Shown in pieces: positions 2,395 to 10,318 of a stretch of 64,000 nt of DNA. The stretch is from Chitinophaga agri. GTDB taxonomy: Bacteria > Bacteroidota > Bacteroidia > Chitinophagales > Chitinophagaceae. A program made the translations under genes and the position numbers. Every line of letters begins with the position of its first letter. The stretch's first letter is position 1. The stretch covers positions 4,216,001 to 4,280,000 of the forward strand of contig NZ_CP048113.1 of the NCBI RefSeq assembly GCF_010093065.1, in the 5' to 3' direction. Under the pieces are notes generated by a model. It searched no databases. It had not been told where the DNA came from and worked only from the letters and a program-made list of their open reading frames with translations.

Positions 2395-3816
2395 CTAGTA
2401 TTCAGTAGATTCAGCAGCCCAGTTGGTCCAGCCTTTAGTCCAGTCAGTAGTAGCATCGAATGCACCACGGTACTCAGCTTTAACAAAGCCCAGTGTAGTT
2501 ACATCCATACCGCCGGTTACTGCAGGAGATTCAGCTTTCAGCAGGAAGTTAGGAGTACCAGTGGTAGCACCTACAGCAGGAGAGAATACGTTTGGTGTAG
2601 TCATCAGTGCTTCCTCAGCTTTAGCTAATACAGTTGTATTTGTAGCAGCCCACCATGCAGCCCATGCAACCGGGTCCTGAGTAGACCACTCGCTCTTAGT
2701 GATAGTAGATGGGTTAGCACCTGCAATGATGTTGTTTTTGAACATCAGAGAACCTTCAGCAGCGTTCTGAGAAGTCTTGTGGCTAGCGACTTTGCTATCA
2801 TCAATGTACAGACCGATAGGGAAACCAACGATGAGGGAGTTCACCAGGCTCATAGAAGAGTTACGACGGATCTGTGCACCGTGCTGGAAGTTAGCGTTAA
2901 TACCGGAGTTAGAATTACCAGCTACGATCGGTCCAACGATAGTCATATTAGAGAAGATAGCTTTGGTCTGCGGAGCGTTAACGGAACCGTTAGCATCGTT
3001 ATCAGATTCGAAACCATTAGAACCAGATACGTCAGCGATCGCTTTGTAACGGTGAGCAACACCAAACTGTACTTTACCAGAGAAACCGTTATCAGTATCG
3101 AAATCGTCATCCCAGGTATAAGTAGCAACCAGGTGATCACAGTTTACAGAACCACCAAACCATTCGAATGCGTCGTCACCGGAACGGTAAACCTGTACAT
3201 AAGAGATCTTGGTACCGTTACCAACACCGCCCATAGTCAGACCGTTGATTTCGTTATCAGGAGAGTAAGCGATACCAGCGAACTCGATACGTACATATTC
3301 CAGGGTACCAGAGTTGTCAGTATCGTTAGTACCACCGTACCAGATATATTCTTTTTCAGCACCACCTGCAGTTGGAACCAGACCACCTTCGATCTTAGCT
3401 TCACCATCAGTAGCATTTGTTTTAGCTTTACCCAGGATGATCACACCACCCCAGTCACCCTGAGAACGGGCGCCTTTAGGCTGAGAGGAAGTGAACACAA
3501 TTGGTTTTGCAGCTGTACCTTTCGCTTCGATCTTAGCACCACGGGTGATGATCAGCGTACCTTTATCAGCTTTGTCACCCATGATCACTGTACCTGGCTC
3601 GATAGTCAGGGTAGCACCACTTTTAACATATACGAAACCGTCCAGTAAATATTTTTTGTCTGCAGTCAGCGTCTTGTTAGCAGTGATATCACCTTTCAGA
3701 ACAACTACATCATCACCGGTAGTAGGGGGAGTCACATTGTTATCTTTATCATCGCTGCAGGAAGAAAGCACGCCAATAGACAATGCGGTCGCAAATAATA
3801 AGAAATACCTTTTCAT
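2395..3816 (-). CDS. Secreted lipoprotein, right-handed beta-helix-like (phosphate-starvation candidate)
   Basis: A 473-aa protein of unproven function. The chosen ATG at 3816 gives a lipoprotein signal, MKRYFLLFATALSIGVLSSC, with the lipid-modified Cys at residue 20; a TTG nine codons upstream would spoil it. Next comes a low-complexity D/N/T linker, then repeating short strands (SGATLTIEPGTVI, GTLIITRGAKIEAKGT, KPIVFTSS) typical of beta-helix surface proteins. It lies 103 bp downstream of a TonB receptor on the same strand but has its own promoter region with the same 11-bp-period repeats. I infer a surface partner of that receptor, perhaps for a phosphorus-containing ligand. Function is not established. 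Confidence 0.75.
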   Translation of the reverse strand: MKRYFLLFATALSIGVLSSCSDDKDNNVTPPTTGDDVVVLKGDITANKTLTADKKYLLDGFVYVKSGATLTIEPGTVIMGDKADKGTLIITRGAKIEAKGTAAKPIVFTSSQPKGARSQGDWGGVIILGKAKTNATDGEAKIEGGLVPTAGGAEKEYIWYGGTNDTDNSGTLEYVRIEFAGIAYSPDNEINGLTMGGVGNGTKISYVQVYRSGDDAFEWFGGSVNCDHLVATYTWDDDFDTDNGFSGKVQFGVAHRYKAIADVSGSNGFESDNDANGSVNAPQTKAIFSNMTIVGPIVAGNSNSGINANFQHGAQIRRNSSMSLVNSLIVGFPIGLYIDDSKVASHKTSQNAAEGSLMFKNNIIAGANPSTITKSEWSTQDPVAWAAWWAATNTTVLAKAEEALMTTPNVFSPAVGATTGTPNFLLKAESPAVTGGMDVTTLGFVKAEYRGAFDATTDWTKGWTNWAAESTEY

Positions 3817-3851
3817 GGAATGTTTCAATTGTTTAGACTTCAAAATTATAT

Positions 3852-3896
3852 CCGCACTATGATGCCTGTGTTACGGAAATGTTACGGTTATATTAA
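3852..3896 (-). promoter_or_regulatory. Pho-box-like direct repeats plus -7 region for the lipoprotein gene
   Basis: Plus-strand TGTTAC, TGTTAC and TATTAA start at 3869, 3880 and 3891, exactly 11 bp apart. On the gene strand they read TTAATA, GTAACA, GTAACA, then 9 nt, then TAGTGCGG (3852-3859), a degenerate TAnnTTTG. The geometry matches the sites at 6788, 7440 and 8487. Binding of a PhoB/PhoP-type regulator is inferred. Confidence 0.65.
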
Positions 3897-3919
3897 GACT
3901 TTACGTTTATGCTTACTTA

Positions 3920-6748
3920 TTATTTACTAAGATGAAAGCTATAGGTCAATGTGAATGTTGTACCCGGGCGATACTGCTGCAGGATATAGTCTTCACCTGA
4001 ATTAATAGCACCTCTTTTGTAAACAGGATTATCGAATTTGTTGTTACCGTTCTGGTCATAATAGAAGCGGTATTGTGCGTTCAGTATATCCTTTACATTC
4101 AGCCGCAGGTTACTGCGTTTGCTGAGGTTCATGTTAGCCTGGAAGTCGAGCAGGTTACGCGGACTTTCATAAATGTTACCCAGTCTGCCGGAACCGTCAG
4201 CACCACCTCCTTCACCTACCAGGAACAGACGCTGACCGATCCTGTTATACAGTACATTGAAGCTCACTTTATCGTTTGGCAGTGTATAGGAAAGGCTGGT
4301 ATTGATCACGTAGTTAGACTGACCAGACAGCGGTCTGCTCTTGGCACTTGCAGTAGTATTATCATCTACTACGGATTTGATGTAAGCAACGTTTGCATAA
4401 AAGGTAGTATTCTTCAGCACAGCGCTTTCACCAAGGAAGCTCAGTTTCTTACGCAGTTCAATTTCAGCACCAACGTTATATGCACTTGGATAGTTATAAG
4501 GAGTGATATCATACTGGCTCAGACCAGAAGAAGTTACCCTGCTTTCAATCGGGTTCTTAAAGTGTTTGTAGAATACAGATCCGGAGAAAACTTCACCTGC
4601 GTTCGGGAAGAGCTCATAACGGATATCCGCATTGTTGATCTGGCTGCGTAACAGACGTACATTACCATTGATCAGGGAAGACATTTCGTAGTCATAATAA
4701 GACAGTGGAGCCAGCTCACGTAATTCCGGTCTTGCGACTGTTTTGTAATAAGAACCACGCAGATTGGACTTTTCACTCAGAGAGTAAGTCAGGTTAGCGG
4801 AAGGTAATACATCGATCCAGTTATGATCAACATTCACAGTCGGGTTATTGATCGGCGCTTTCATTTTCAAACCGAAAGACTCTACTCTTACACCCCATAC
4901 CAGGCGGAATTTGTCAGACAGTCTGTTATCTAACTGTGCATAACCGGCACCCGTAGTAGTAGTTGCTCTGTATTCATCCACAGAAGAAGTGATATCGTCC
5001 AGTGTGTAGAAACCATTATCGACTGCATCATTACCAAACAGCGTAGAGATAGGGCGCTGAGCGATCTCCATGTTACCATCTTTCAACGGATCCAGTTTGA
5101 GCCCAAGGTAACGGGCATAGAAATCTCTGCTACGGTACTGGAACAGGCCACCTACTTTCAGAGAACTTTTGTTATTCAGGAAACGGAACGGATGTGAATA
5201 ATTTGCGCTGGCGATGTAGATGTTCTCATTCAGATCGGAGAACAGGCGGTTGTTCGCTTTACCTACTGTACCGACATCCGCAGTCATGATCGCCGCTTCA
5301 TCACCTAATGTTTTACCGTAGGAAACTTTACGCTGATCAGGCTGATTGTTGGTCACTTTATTGTAAGACAGCAACCAGTTTATTTTACTCTGGCCCTGAC
5401 CTACCTGGTGTTCACCTTCCAATGCTGTCTTGAACAGGGATTTCTGCACCAGGTCAAATGCATAGTAGTTAATGAACTTGTTGTTGCTCAGGTTATCACC
5501 TTCGCGGAAGAGGAAGTTATCATCAAAGATCCTGTTGTACAGGTTTTTCCATACAAACTTGCTTTTACCTGCAGCGTAACCGAAGTTCAGCACGCCACCC
5601 AGGTTAGAAGAATATTTGTATACATTATCAATGTAATCAAAGTTGTCGTAGCGGCGTTTTACATCACGTTGTACAGTTTCCTGGTGTGTATAGGTCATTG
5701 CAGCTATCATACCCAGGCTACCATCTTTTTTAGTATTCCAGTGGTCACCGTAAGAAGCCTGTAAGTTCATGGCAGGCAGGCCATTTTTCTCTTTAATGCT
5801 GAAATCGTTGTTCAGTGACTTGATGGCAGTTTGTTGCTGCGTCATGGTCAGCTGATTATTCACGATCGCACCAGTGGTCGGGAAAGAAGAAGGCAGTTGG
5901 CGACCACCGTCGAATCCGAGGAAGTCGGTACTGCTCTTGTAGCCAGATTTGAATGATTTGAAAGTAGAAGCAGTGTTATAACCAGTACCTACAGATATGT
6001 CGAAGAATTTCTGATCAGGGATTTCCTTTGTCTGTACATTGATCACACCACCGGCGAAGTCACCAGGCAGTTCAGGCGTGGCAGATTTAGTAATAACGAT
6101 ATTATCGATCATGTTAGATGGGATAATATCGAAGGAGAACGCTTTACGGTTAGGCTCTGTGCTAGGAAGAACGGCATTGTCAACCAGTGCAGTATTGTAA
6201 CGATCGCTCAGGCCACGTACAATAACGAATTTATTATCCTGGATCGTGGTGCCGCTCACACGTTTCAGGACTTCACCGGTGCTGCGGTCAGGAGATTTCC
6301 GGATCACATCGCCAGAGATACCATCGGATACGGAGGCATTGTTTTTCTGGGCGGTATATAATGCGTTGATCGTTTCCTGTTTGTAGGAACCTCTGATAAC
6401 AACTTCCTGCAGGTCTTTGGACTTAGGTTCGTCCATGATCACCGGGAGCTGCGTGGGGGCACCTGCTTTTACGACAACGTCGCTGACAGCTTTTGTTTGG
6501 TAGCCCATATATTTAAACTCCAGGGTGTAAGTACCGGGAGCAACATTAATAGTATAACGACCTTCGACGTCAGTAACGGCGCCATTGGATGTACCCTGTA
6601 CAATAACGGTAACGCCTATGAGGGCCTCACCGGTTTTCTGGTCAGTGACCTTACCGGTTACTTTACCATTCTCGATGGCAAAAGCAGACAAAAAGGTACT
6701 CAAAAGAAGGCAAACACATAACAGTGCAGACGCAAGAGAATGTTTCAC
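3920..6748 (-). CDS. TonB-dependent receptor with CarboxypepD-like N-terminal domain
   Basis: A 942-aa outer-membrane transporter. It starts at GTG 6748, followed by a signal peptide ending near AFA (residue 24). Residues about 29-110 form the carboxypeptidase-regulatory-like domain (GKVTGKVTDQKTGEALIGVT, then GTYTLEFKYMGYQT). The plug follows (VLKRVSGTTIQDNKFVIVRG; PSTEPNRKAFSFDIIPS), then a 22-strand-type barrel ending in aromatic-rich YSFHLSK. The substrate cannot be read from sequence. The upstream Pho-box-like repeats and the neighbouring phosphate genes suggest uptake of a phosphorus source; an energised receptor plus surface lipoprotein is a common Bacteroidota arrangement. The family is sure, the substrate is inference. 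Confidence 0.9.
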   Translation of the reverse strand: MKHSLASALLCVCLLLSTFLSAFAIENGKVTGKVTDQKTGEALIGVTVIVQGTSNGAVTDVEGRYTINVAPGTYTLEFKYMGYQTKAVSDVVVKAGAPTQLPVIMDEPKSKDLQEVVIRGSYKQETINALYTAQKNNASVSDGISGDVIRKSPDRSTGEVLKRVSGTTIQDNKFVIVRGLSDRYNTALVDNAVLPSTEPNRKAFSFDIIPSNMIDNIVITKSATPELPGDFAGGVINVQTKEIPDQKFFDISVGTGYNTASTFKSFKSGYKSSTDFLGFDGGRQLPSSFPTTGAIVNNQLTMTQQQTAIKSLNNDFSIKEKNGLPAMNLQASYGDHWNTKKDGSLGMIAAMTYTHQETVQRDVKRRYDNFDYIDNVYKYSSNLGGVLNFGYAAGKSKFVWKNLYNRIFDDNFLFREGDNLSNNKFINYYAFDLVQKSLFKTALEGEHQVGQGQSKINWLLSYNKVTNNQPDQRKVSYGKTLGDEAAIMTADVGTVGKANNRLFSDLNENIYIASANYSHPFRFLNNKSSLKVGGLFQYRSRDFYARYLGLKLDPLKDGNMEIAQRPISTLFGNDAVDNGFYTLDDITSSVDEYRATTTTGAGYAQLDNRLSDKFRLVWGVRVESFGLKMKAPINNPTVNVDHNWIDVLPSANLTYSLSEKSNLRGSYYKTVARPELRELAPLSYYDYEMSSLINGNVRLLRSQINNADIRYELFPNAGEVFSGSVFYKHFKNPIESRVTSSGLSQYDITPYNYPSAYNVGAEIELRKKLSFLGESAVLKNTTFYANVAYIKSVVDDNTTASAKSRPLSGQSNYVINTSLSYTLPNDKVSFNVLYNRIGQRLFLVGEGGGADGSGRLGNIYESPRNLLDFQANMNLSKRSNLRLNVKDILNAQYRFYYDQNGNNKFDNPVYKRGAINSGEDYILQQYRPGTTFTLTYSFHLSK

Positions 6749-6787
6749 GATATAAGCTGATTCAGTTACTTGATTGAATTACTGACG

Positions 6788-6843
6788 CAAAACTATCTCC
6801 GGCGTGTTACCGCAGTGTTACAGCAAGGTTACCAGAATGTTAA
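6788..6843 (-). promoter_or_regulatory. Pho-box-like operator and promoter of the TonB receptor gene
   Basis: TGTTAC (6805), TGTTAC (6816), GGTTAC (6827) and TGTTAA (6838) on the plus strand are spaced exactly 11 bp. On the gene strand they end 9 nt before TAGTTTTG (6788-6795), a perfect TAnnTTTG -7 box, so the repeats occupy the -33 position as in activator-dependent Pho promoters. The predicted start of transcription gives a leader of about 33 nt. Confidence 0.75.
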
Positions 6844-6958
6844 TTGTTAAGGAATGATTAAAAAATAGTTAACACGGCATCGGAGTGCAGGTTTCATCGG
6901 ATAGATAGTAATACAATAAGGTATAAAGGATATGGATATACGGTCATGTCAACGCAGA

Positions 6959-7369
6959 TCAGCAGGCAATTTGCTGGGAACCCGGAAAGTTATTGTTCAG
7001 CAATCTGTCTATTGTAATATCCAGCTGCGCATTGTATTCAGCATTGAGCTTCATCCCGTCAGACAGGGCCGCGATCAGCTGAAAGAGGTGCATACTTTTA
7101 TTTGTGAAGGGTTTATTGTCCTTATTACAAAGTTCCAGGGTAAAGTTGAATTTGTCTTCCAGTTCTTCTTCGAACTCACGGAGGCTCAATGTTTCATCAA
7201 TAGGGAACTCGATCAGTATCTGTTCCAGGAACCCCGCTTCCTGCAGGGTGTCAAATGCATTGGCAGGGGAGTTACGCATATAAACAGCGATATTACAGGA
7301 GAGCAGTCGCTGGAACTGCATCTGTAACAGGGACACCGTCATTTGAGGATGTAACTTCAATACTTTCAT
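6959..7369 (-). CDS. Small protein of unknown function under a Pho-box-like promoter
   Basis: A 136-aa protein with no signal peptide or membrane segment. I do not recognise the family. It is rich in Leu and acidic residues in its middle (FEEELEDKFNFTLELCN, DETLSLREFEEELED), has three Cys (25, about 102 and the C-terminal residue) and looks alpha-helical, so it is probably cytoplasmic. The start at ATG 7369 is the only good one. It is monocistronic, lying between the TonB receptor promoter and the metallophosphatase. Its upstream region has the strongest form of the repeat/-7 arrangement, so a role in the phosphate-starvation response is the best guess. No enzymatic motif is seen. Confidence 0.65.
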   Translation of the reverse strand: MKVLKLHPQMTVSLLQMQFQRLLSCNIAVYMRNSPANAFDTLQEAGFLEQILIEFPIDETLSLREFEEELEDKFNFTLELCNKDNKPFTNKSMHLFQLIAALSDGMKLNAEYNAQLDITIDRLLNNNFPGSQQIAC

Positions 7370-7439
7370 CTTACTTATATGTTAGCATTACCCGTCTAAC
7401 CCAGGAATATTTGTACGTTGATAATTGTATATAACACTG

Positions 7440-7484
7440 CAAACTTAATAGGTCTGTATTAAGTGAATATTAAGCAGTTGTTAT
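7440..7484 (-). promoter_or_regulatory. Pho-box-like operator and promoter of the 136-aa gene
   Basis: Plus-strand TATTAA (7457), TATTAA (7468) and TGTTAT (7479) are spaced 11 bp. On the gene strand they end 9 nt before TAAGTTTG (7440-7447), a perfect TAnnTTTG. Geometry is identical to the site at 6788-6843. The predicted leader is about 64 nt. Confidence 0.7.
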
Positions 7485-7527
7485 TATATCATAAATTAAT
7501 GTTAAATAACAACAACTTATATATGTG

Positions 7528-8364
7528 TTATTGTTGTGGAAAGCTGATCACCTTGGAGATGTCTTCCCATGGCATAACGGAGGGATCTTCTTCCTCTTCT
7601 GGTAATGTAACGCGGGTTTTAGATACCGGATACTGATAAAGGCTCCATTGGCCATTGGTATATTCAAGAGAGGTAAGGCTTTCAACCCAGTCACCGGAGT
7701 TCAGATAGGTCACGGACTTACCATTATGTTCCATTTCCTTGATGATAGGCTGGTGGATATGTCCACAGCATACGACATCAAATTCTTTGTCAATGGCGAT
7801 CTCGGCAACCACCTGTTCAAAGTCTGAGATGAACTTAACTGCCTGTTTCACACCATGTTTCACCTTTTTTGAAAAGCTCATCTTTTCCTTACCAAATCTT
7901 TCCAACAGGTTATTAACCAGTCTGTTAATAATAATTAGCAGGTCATACCCCTTTCCACCCAGTTTGGCCAGCCACTTAGAATTTTTCATAGTCACGTCAT
8001 ATACGTCTCCGTGGAAGAACCAGTGTCTTTTACCGTCGACCTCGAGGATCAGTTTATTATCTATGGTTAGGTTACCCAGTCCGAAACCTGCAAATTTGCG
8101 AAGCGCTTCATCATGATTACCAGTCAGATAATATACTTCAGTGCCCTTTCCGGTCATTTTCAGTATCCTGCGGATCACTTTGGTATGTGCTTTAGGGAAG
8201 TAACGTTTGCTGAATTGCCAGATATCTATGATATCACCATTCAGTACCAATATCTTAGGATCGATACTATCCAGATATTGGACCAATTCCCTGGCATGAC
8301 AGCCATAGATTCCGAGGTGGACGTCAGATATAACGACGATATCGAGAGGGCGCTTTTCAGACAT
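7528..8364 (-). CDS. Calcineurin-type metallophosphatase (UDP-2,3-diacylglucosamine diphosphatase / PlcP-like)
   Basis: A 278-aa metallophosphoesterase with all metal-binding motifs: DVHLG (14-18), NGDIID (42-47), GNHDE (82-86), HGD and GHIH, plus the C-terminal GDWVES signature. It belongs to the COG2908 group that includes LpxH-like pyrophosphatases of lipid A synthesis and the phosphate-starvation phospholipase PlcP, which replaces phospholipids by phosphorus-free lipids. The shared signatures, remembered rather than aligned here, and a Pho-box-like site upstream make a PlcP-like role plausible. No glycosyltransferase (agt) is adjacent, which weakens that reading. It is soluble, with no signal peptide. 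Confidence 0.85.
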   Translation of the reverse strand: MSEKRPLDIVVISDVHLGIYGCHARELVQYLDSIDPKILVLNGDIIDIWQFSKRYFPKAHTKVIRRILKMTGKGTEVYYLTGNHDEALRKFAGFGLGNLTIDNKLILEVDGKRHWFFHGDVYDVTMKNSKWLAKLGGKGYDLLIIINRLVNNLLERFGKEKMSFSKKVKHGVKQAVKFISDFEQVVAEIAIDKEFDVVCCGHIHQPIIKEMEHNGKSVTYLNSGDWVESLTSLEYTNGQWSLYQYPVSKTRVTLPEEEEDPSVMPWEDISKVISFPQQ

Positions 8365-8486
8365 TTTTTAGCGTATTGAACCGGAGGAGCCGGACAGTTG
8401 TTAGGTTTGTGATAAATAGTTTCGTGCACCAAAATACGGCTCCAATACAAGCCCAGCTTGCCTTCGGAGAGTATTTTTTCACAATA

Positions 8487-8542
8487 CAAAGAAAAAATTG
8501 CTATATTACTTTTATATTAATCCAGTGTTAAGGAATCATTAA
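8487..8542 (-). promoter_or_regulatory. Pho-box-like repeats in the divergent metallophosphatase/pit region
   Basis: Four hexamers on the plus strand, TATTAC (8504), TATTAA (8515), TGTTAA (8526) and CATTAA (8537), are exactly 11 bp apart. On the minus strand they end 9 nt before TTTCTTTG (8487-8494), one mismatch from TAnnTTTG, so they are oriented towards the metallophosphatase. The pit operon promoter lies 37 bp away on the other side and may be co-regulated. Confidence 0.65.
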
Positions 8543-8579: not shown

Positions 8580-8587
8580 TATTTTTG
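8580..8587 (+). promoter_or_regulatory. -7 box of the PhoU-like/pit operon
   Basis: TATTTTTG matches the Bacteroidota TAnnTTTG consensus exactly, 23 nt before the start codon at 8611. A CTTG at 8555-8558 is a weak -33 candidate. Confidence 0.55.
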
Positions 8588-8610: not shown

Positions 8611-9264
8611 ATGGGAGGCTTCAATTCCTTTGTAAAGTTATTTATTCCGAAAGACAGGGTATTTTATTCACTGTTCGAAGACGTGGCTGCCAATCTGGTA
8701 GAAATGGGTAAAACGCTCGTAGAGCTGGTATCCAGTTCCGATATGGCTGTACGTAAAGATAAAACCCATCTGATTGAGCGACTGGAGCACAAAAACGACG
8801 ATTTCACACATCGCATTTTTGTCGAGCTGGGACAGAACTTCATTACTCCTTTTGATCGTGAAGATATTCACCACCTGGCCGCTACCCTGGACGACGTGGC
8901 TGACTATATCCATGGTTCTGCGAAAAGGCTGGACTTGTATAAAGTACATGAGATCAATGACAGTGTGCGTAAATTGGCTGACCTGATCTATCAGGGTACC
9001 CTGGAACTGCATAAAGCAATCCCTGAACTGCGTTCTATGTCTAATATGCGTAATATCACAGATGCCTGTGTAAGGATCAACAGTCTGGAGAACCACGCAG
9101 ATGACATTTATGACATGGCTATTGCGGACCTTTTTGAAAAAGAGTCTAATAATGCAGGTGAATTGCTGAAAATGCGTGAATTGTACCAGGCATTGGAAAT
9201 TGCAACTGACAAATGTGAAGATTGCGCCAATGTGATAGAATCAATTATCATAAAATATGCATAA
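8611..9264 (+). CDS. DUF47 / PhoU-like phosphate transport regulator
   Basis: A 217-aa cytoplasmic all-helical protein of the DUF47 (PhoU-like, TIGR00153) family. It begins MGGFNSFVKLFIPKDRVFY, followed by a four-helix pattern with conserved acidic positions (HLAATLDDVADYIHGSAKRL; NSLENHADDIYDMA; CEDCANVIESIIIKYA). These proteins are usually encoded directly before a Pit transporter and are thought to control it. Here the pit gene starts 50 bp downstream on the same strand. Length is normal for the family. Confidence 0.9.
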   Translation: MGGFNSFVKLFIPKDRVFYSLFEDVAANLVEMGKTLVELVSSSDMAVRKDKTHLIERLEHKNDDFTHRIFVELGQNFITPFDREDIHHLAATLDDVADYIHGSAKRLDLYKVHEINDSVRKLADLIYQGTLELHKAIPELRSMSNMRNITDACVRINSLENHADDIYDMAIADLFEKESNNAGELLKMRELYQALEIATDKCEDCANVIESIIIKYA

Positions 9265-9313: not shown

Positions 9314-10318
9314 ATGATCTTACTTGTCACGATCATCATTCTGGCGTTTATATTTGATTATATCAACGGCTTTCATGATGCGGCTAACTCTATAGCGACT
9401 ATAGTATCAACAAAAGTACTTACGCCCTTTCAGGCTGTACTGTGGGCAGCAGTATTTAACTTCGCTGCCTTCTTTATCTCGAAATATGTGTATGGTGAGT
9501 TCAAGGTAGGTAACACTATCGCGAAATCAGTATTTGAGCAGTTTATCACCCTGAAAGTGATCCTTTGCGGGCTGATTGCTGCGATCACCTGGAACCTGCT
9601 CACCTGGTGGTATGGTATTCCTTCGAGCTCTTCGCATACCCTGATCGGGGGATTTATCGGAGCAGCTGTGGCAGCCGCTCATGGTTCTTTCGCAGTGATC
9701 AACTATGCGAAGGTGATGCCGATCATCTACTTCATTGCACTGGCGCCATTCATTGGTATGGCCGTCGCCTTTATCATCACTATCATTATTATGAACGTTT
9801 GCCGCAGGGCAAATCCGTACCGGGCGGAAAACTGGTTCAAACGCCTGCAGCTGGTATCATCCGGCGCGCTGAGCCTTGCACACGGTGGTAACGATGCCCA
9901 GAAGGTAATGGGTATCATTGCGGCAGCCCTGGTAGCGCATGGAACAATTGACAACATTGCTGAAGTACCGAACTGGGTTCCTCTTTCCTGTTTTATCGCA
10001 ATTGGTCTGGGTACCATGAGCGGTGGCTGGAAAATCGTTAAAACAATGGGTTCCCGTATCACCAAGGTAACACCACTCGAAGGTGTGGCTGCAGAAACTG
10101 CCGGTGCGGTAACGCTTTATCTTACTGAGTCACTGGGTATTCCGGTGAGTACCACACACACTATTACCGGTTCAATTATCGGGGTAGGGGCTACCAAACG
10201 TCTCTCCGCCGTACGCTGGGGGGTTACCGTAAGCCTGCTGTGGGCGTGGATACTCACGATTCCGATCAGTGCATTACTTGCTGCTGTAGTCTATTTCATA
10301 GCAGACCTGTTCTTCTGA
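9314..10318 (+). CDS. pit: Pit-family inorganic phosphate permease
   Basis: A 334-aa inner-membrane transporter with about ten hydrophobic segments. The duplicated family signature is clear: an N-terminal half with NGFHDAANSIATIVSTKVL and a C-terminal half with HGGNDAQKVMG, plus SSSSHTLIGG and SVSTTHTITGS motifs. Pit carriers import metal-phosphate complexes using the proton gradient. It is the second gene of a two-gene operon with the DUF47 protein and is followed by a terminator. Length is typical for the short bacterial and archaeal type. Confidence 0.95.
   Translation: MILLVTIIILAFIFDYINGFHDAANSIATIVSTKVLTPFQAVLWAAVFNFAAFFISKYVYGEFKVGNTIAKSVFEQFITLKVILCGLIAAITWNLLTWWYGIPSSSSHTLIGGFIGAAVAAAHGSFAVINYAKVMPIIYFIALAPFIGMAVAFIITIIIMNVCRRANPYRAENWFKRLQLVSSGALSLAHGGNDAQKVMGIIAAALVAHGTIDNIAEVPNWVPLSCFIAIGLGTMSGGWKIVKTMGSRITKVTPLEGVAAETAGAVTLYLTESLGIPVSTTHTITGSIIGVGATKRLSAVRWGVTVSLLWAWILTIPISALLAAVVYFIADLFF

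Follow-up and report, generated by a model that had tools for sequence, protein, structure and literature searches.

Tandem hexamer arrays with an 11-bp period upstream of four Chitinophaga agri genes are very probably Pho boxes

This study deals with repeated sequence elements in a stretch of 64 kilobases (kb) of the Chitinophaga agri genome (contig NZ_CP048113.1, positions 4,216,001 to 4,280,000), which was analyzed as a whole and is called the window. Four genes on the minus strand are each preceded by an array of short, regularly spaced hexamers. The first gene (2395-3816) encodes a surface lipoprotein, for which searches of Pfam and NCBIfam did not yield a match. The second (3920-6748) encodes a TonB-dependent receptor with CarboxypepD_reg, Plug and barrel domains. 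The third (6959-7369) encodes a protein of 136 amino acids (aa), and all organism names shown among the 120 listed of its 140 homologues were Chitinophaga. The fourth (7528-8364) encodes a PlcP-type metallophosphoesterase with matches to Metallophos and Metallophos_2. This enzyme scored far under the cut-offs of the LpxH model, and its orthologues in 10 flavobacterial genomes were 55-60% identical. A separate phosphoesterase paralogue in the same genome, 27% identical, is probably LpxH. The PlcP-type enzyme would be predicted to cleave the head groups from phospholipids so that these lipids can be replaced.

The promoters of these four genes contain three to four KTAAYA-like hexamers each (K is T or G, Y is C or T), with a constant period of 11 base pairs (bp). 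An earlier reading of the letters alone (the sequence-only reading) had claimed that hexamers of the form (T/G)TAA(C/T)A recur with this period on the coding strand of the four intergenic regions, and all of them could be located. Their positions are given here as the first base of each hexamer on the minus strand. The lipoprotein array (3841-3896) is composed of TTAATA at 3896, GTAACA at 3885, GTAACA at 3874 and a weak ATCATA at 3863-3858, followed, after 9 nucleotides (nt), by the -7 box TAATTTTG at 3848-3841. In the receptor array (6788-6843), TTAACA at 6843, GTAACC at 6832, GTAACA at 6821 and GTAACA at 6810 are followed at the same distance by TAGTTTTG at 6795-6788. The array of the 136-aa gene (7440-7484) has three hexamers, ATAACA at 7484, TTAATA at 7473 and TTAATA at 7462, and, again after 9 nt, the box TAAGTTTG at 7447-7440. 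The array of the PlcP-type gene (8487-8542) has TTAATG at 8542, TTAACA at 8531, TTAATA at 8520 and GTAATA at 8509, then 9 nt and the box TTTCTTTG at 8494-8487. Upstream of the receptor array lies an extra hexamer pair in another register, TTAATC-N5-TTAACA (6845-6861, minus strand), which by eye is present in many orthologues of the genus.

The sequence-only reading had also stated that each of the four arrays ends exactly 9 nt upstream of a -7 box resembling TAnnTTTG. This was correct for the receptor, the 136-aa gene and the phosphoesterase, whereas the box that it had named for the lipoprotein, TAGTGCGG, had to be replaced. TAGTGCGG was dropped because it is not kept by the relatives, and TAATTTTG fits the consensus. 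The combination ATCATA-N9-TA[AT]TTTTG was found in five of seven sequences tested, the window counted in. After this reassignment the distance from the last hexamer to the -7 box is 9 nt in all four cases, and thus all four sites follow one rule.

Chance, or simple tandem repeats, could in principle produce such a pattern, and 11-bp tandem repeats do imitate it in one genome of the class (G173, 32 matches). For the window this explanation is exceedingly improbable. KTAAYA pairs at 11-bp spacing occurred six times in the 64 kb, always inside the four sites, compared to a mean of 0.19 and a maximum of 3 in 300 random windows (first-order Markov model). When the spacer and a -7 box were added (KTAAYA pair, N9, T[AT]nnTTTG), three occurrences in the window stood against none in the 300 random windows. 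In the genome of 7.97 megabases (Mb), the two-hexamer pattern with -7 box had three exact matches, two of them in the cluster of the window, and with up to two mismatches 29 matches, compared to 11 for the reversed control. A three-hexamer pattern, which was built from sites of the window's own genome and also allowed up to two mismatches, had 106 matches in 26 genomes versus 2 for the control; the downstream genes were inspected for the own genome and 20 fetched regions. These nulls and control counts, together with the constancy of phase despite differing spacers that is described below, rule out chance.

The own genome accounted for eight of the three-hexamer matches (control 0), and six of these eight lie inside 10.4 kb, at the lipoprotein, the receptor, the 136-aa gene, the phosphoesterase and, with two matches, a second TonB receptor. 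Such clustering in 7.97 Mb also speaks against the view that the hexamers are the AT-rich upstream part of ordinary Chitinophaga promoters and have no link to phosphate, a view to which we attach a negligible probability. It could appeal to several ECF-sigma genes of the own genome, which are also preceded by two-hexamer matches. However, sigma and FecR genes were induced by phosphate (Pi) depletion in Flavobacterium johnsoniae (PMC8115612), and thus these matches need not be noise. Some ECF-sigma genes with such sites may be genuine members of the regulon. Two-hexamer or weak three-hexamer sites before ECF-sigma genes were seen in several Chitinophaga (L001, L004, L010, L011, L012, L029, L223 and L224).

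Within the genus the arrays are conserved. The phosphoesterase gene was present in all 60 sampled genomes, and the four-hexamer array in all 30 fetched plcP promoters, including the own one, with an expression that was lenient on the third hexamer; GTAATA-N9-T[TAC]nnTTTG was found in 29 of the 30. At 20 fetched loci the 136-aa gene was always present, and the receptor and lipoprotein genes were adjacent in 18, with swapped order in L085. For a phase test, the -7 box was picked without regard to the hexamers, and hexamers were scored when at least five of six positions agreed, the window being counted in. In the predicted phase such hexamers occupied 100% of the positions in the receptor promoters (18 of 19 had a -7 box), 98.8% in the promoters of the 136-aa gene (20 of 21) and 80% in the lipoprotein promoters (TAnnTTTG in 10 of 19), while the other phases reached 0-30% for all three promoter types. 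The hexamer pooled from 129 positions was [TGA]-T-A-A-[CT]-A. Its phase remained constant although the spacer sequence varies among species.

In addition to these conserved arrays, a similar one stands in eight Chitinophaga genomes (L215-L222) upstream of a gene whose secreted product has about 140-155 aa. This gene adjoins, in all but one of the eight, a gene that we take to be COX15-like.

The sequence-only reading had interpreted the arrays as Pho boxes and had suggested that a matrix built from them should find other phosphate genes. The search was performed with the three-hexamer pattern, one mismatch being allowed, in 296 genomes of the class. Matches were found in 18 genomes, and the control matched once in all 296. 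Two genomes were set aside, the window's own (5 matches) and G173 (32 matches), in which a GTAATACGATT-like 11-bp tandem repeat (C1:44563-44651, C4:112119-112218) mimics the pattern and contains most of the listed matches. This left 17 matches in 16 genomes, and 13 of the 17 lie upstream of Pho-type genes. One precedes plcP, which is followed by a glycosyltransferase gene (L323). Four precede relatives of the window's lipoprotein, with 34-48% identity (L325, L326, L332, L335). Two precede Porin_O_P genes (L328, L329), and in L328 the intergenic region is common to a divergent PhoB-like gene. Two precede PstS family genes, one above the model cut-off (L330) and one below it, but with a PstC-like permease next to it (L334). 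One precedes a PhoU_div-pit (DUF47-pit) pair that follows a PhoR-like kinase (L340). The remaining three precede relatives of the window's TonB receptor, with 34-53% identity (L324, L327, L331), and are the weakest of these assignments because TonB receptors form a large superfamily. The Pho-box interpretation is thus supported by the class pattern search, as it is by the conservation in the genus and by the recurrence of the geometry in Flavobacterium.

In six genomes (Flavobacterium sp. Root186, F. anhuiense, F. saccharophilum, F. caseinilyticum, F. subsaxonicum and Kordia zhangzhouensis) relatives of the receptor and lipoprotein genes are divergent from phoB/phoR. Inspection of the intergenic region between them revealed hexamers in register every 11 bp, followed after 9 nt by a TTTCTTTG-like box. 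In the six receptor promoters the blind pick found a -7 box in four and apparently the correct one in two; the geometry there was read by inspection. A loosened pattern had 16 matches in eight Flavobacterium genomes versus 1 for the control, with a site beside the lipoprotein homologue in all eight and phoB seen in four; this result is partly circular because the pattern had been loosened with the six receptor promoters in view, and the searched genomes include the source of four of these promoters. The promoter of the closest Flavobacterium lipoprotein homologue had three hexamers in the predicted phase in each of seven genomes (L236-L242). Among 30 promoters of flavobacterial lipoprotein homologues a -7 box was found in 12; there the predicted phase (phase 0) accounted for 62.5% of hexamers and the next phase for 33%, and 10 of the 12 had at least two hexamers in phase. 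For plcP promoters of other families of the order, 28 of 29 loci were scored blind and 13 had a -7 box; phase 0 was occupied by 15 of 52 hexamers and the other phases by 1-7 of 52, and at least two in-phase hexamers were present in 7 of the 13.

These genes correspond to phosphate-responsive genes of F. johnsoniae. According to the values taken from its PHO regulon report, under a column headed FC that we take to be log2, Pi depletion raised the TonB-dependent transporter (TBDT) and the FII lipoprotein of the phoBR operon by 8.0 and 9.9, a further TBDT and the FI lipoprotein by 12.5 and 14.5, and PlcP by 8.6; a pf12850 PlcP is named there, and ECF-sigma and FecR genes were also induced (PMC8115612). 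The values for OprP, PhoR and PhoB were -1.3, 0.76 and 3.06 (PMC8115612).

Several results weigh against the interpretation as Pho boxes. TAnnTTTG is missing from 9 of the 19 lipoprotein promoters of the genus, and those of two close relatives (L077, L078) do not have the array. The upstream region of the own genome's phoB-like gene was examined and contained no box in register. For the one strong PstS-like gene, the only site is a poor and distant one, with two hexamers, two mismatches and a distance of 430 nt upstream; a box of its own before pstS or phoB is not a universal requirement for a Pho regulon. In flavobacterial plcP promoters (10 loci, -7 box in 9) hexamers with at least five of six agreeing positions occupied 44% in phase 0, but 36% in two other phases. 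The exact form is thus far from present everywhere, as only 18 of the 296 class genomes matched with one mismatch. Among the 17 class matches, four have no known Pho gene downstream. Porin_O_P was scored as a Pho gene, yet OprP of the F. johnsoniae phoBR operon was not induced (-1.3; PMC8115612). The identities of the genes found across the class outweigh this counter-evidence.

Direct repeats spaced near one helical turn are common in the OmpR family, and a member other than PhoB might bind the arrays in response to a different signal, e.g., envelope stress. The own genome has 116 matches to the PhoB model. The best of them (G000:C1:5431518-5432174), which is below the family cut-off and has a histidine kinase next to it, is neither boxed nor adjacent to the arrays, and the boxed genes are not linked to phoBR in this genome. 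Nevertheless, another OmpR-type regulator is improbable: elsewhere the pattern marks PstS-family, Porin_O_P, DUF47-pit and plcP genes, twice beside phoB-like or phoR-like genes, and the relatives of the receptor-lipoprotein pair adjoin phoBR. A PhoB of Flavobacterium sp. Root186 was closest to G000:C1:5431518-5432174 among six loci of the own genome (54% identity compared to 37% for the next).

Taken together, one repeat with one spacing is found at four genes and, in distant relatives, before phosphate-scavenging genes, and it is thus very probably an on-switch for phosphate starvation. We infer that the four arrays are Pho boxes, i.e., tandem sites for the PhoB-type regulator of a PhoR-PhoB system. 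The PhoB-like protein named above, with its neighbouring histidine kinase, would be the best candidate. At low phosphate, phosphorylated PhoB would bind head to tail on one face of the DNA, where each helical turn offers a half site of 6 bp. The last half site, with 9 nt between it and the Bacteroidota -7 box, lies where the -33 element would be expected, and RNA polymerase would be recruited there; the fixed 9-nt spacing suggests a contact with RNA polymerase. Induction of the outer-membrane receptor and the surface lipoprotein would serve the capture of phosphorus compounds and their import across the outer membrane, that of the PlcP-type enzyme the replacement of phospholipids, and the genus-specific 136-aa protein would be induced alongside.

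The sequence-only reading had described a local regulon. The set is not confined to the four genes, however: immediately to the left of the window, a second TonB receptor gene has two boxes as well. This receptor of 1078 aa (G000:C1:4210908-4214471; L030:12908-16471), which we take to be Oar-type, has two separate arrays, 18 and 293 nt upstream of its start.

Divergent from the PlcP-type gene, a PhoU_div (DUF47) gene (8611-9264) and a gene with a domain match to the PHO4 family of Pit-type transporters (9314-10318) are located on the plus strand. A role of the PlcP-type array in driving DUF47-pit as well was rejected, for the DUF47 gene has its own TATTTTTG box at 8580-8587 and no plus-strand array was seen there (both by eye). 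In the genome with the L340 match, DUF47-pit does carry an array. The PHO4-family transporter may respond to phosphate. Besides the single strong PstS-like gene, the best match to the PstC model in the own genome reached 69.7 bits, below the cut-off of 196.45; this Chitinophaga may therefore have no Pst transporter and depend instead on the window's Pit-type one.

Two further observations concern the four class matches that do not precede Pho-type genes. Three of them belong to three genera of one family (L336, L337, L338), where 7-9 nt separate the end of the array from the start of a protein of 113-114 aa, and another small secreted protein is encoded after it; the 114-aa protein is CarboxypepD_reg by Pfam, as determined for L336. 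The fourth is L333, in a distant genome. Its box, at 1501 of the reverse strand, is not followed by a convincing gene, and about 60 nt past the -7 box a hairpin and a stretch of T that resemble a terminator were seen by eye. This box could start a short RNA.

Among the Bacteroidota, the F. johnsoniae PHO regulon is similar in its TBDT genes with lipoproteins (FI, FII), in PlcP, in the linkage to phoBR and in that these genes are strongly induced when Pi is depleted, and the terms "Pho box" and "motif" are absent from the main text of that report (PMC8115612). For Bacteroides fragilis, a member of the same phylum, an electrophoretic mobility shift assay showed direct binding of PhoB to the pstC promoter; the fragment had 512 bp, and "consensus" and "binding site" do not occur in the main text (PMC3547664). 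For marine isolates, putative Pho-box sites were reported in plcP gene clusters, in a section that gives no sequence (PMC4796936). A Pho-box consensus for the Bacteroidota was not found in the open-licence literature searched. The type of element is already known, and its sequence and geometry in the Bacteroidota appear to be new against that literature.

We are inclined, with some reserve, to regard the present description as the first definition of the Pho-box cis-element in the Bacteroidota, with half sites that resemble KTAAYA, have an 11-bp period and stand 9 nt before TAnnTTTG, from Chitinophaga to Flavobacterium and beyond. Much of the regulon of the class would thereby become readable from sequence. 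It would also gain members, namely the Chitinophaga protein of 136 aa, a secreted protein of 147 aa, the CarboxypepD_reg protein of 114 aa, several ECF-sigma systems and perhaps a short RNA that ends at a terminator. Soil, plant roots, the sea and the gut all harbour Bacteroidota in abundance, and the phosphate response of this phylum has so far been known as gene lists. The strict geometry of the sites would allow prediction of the regulon across the class and nominates uncharacterised genes for phosphate scavenging. It also hints at how PhoB cooperates with the unusual Bacteroidota promoter.

In Escherichia coli, the Pho box consists of 11-bp direct repeats that replace the -35 element, with a CTGTCAT-like half site. 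The arrays described here share with this proteobacterial box the 11-bp direct repeats, the location close upstream of the core promoter and the occurrence before pst and other phosphate genes. They differ in the half site, KTAAYA, in the Bacteroidota core promoter TAnnTTTG at a distance of exactly 9 nt, and in targets that include a TonB receptor-lipoprotein pair. The PhoP boxes of Bacillus subtilis have TTAACA-like half sites and are thus very similar in half site as well as in the 11-bp period. In contrast to them, the arrays belong to a different phylum and promoter type, and a constant 9 nt separate the last half site from the -7 box.

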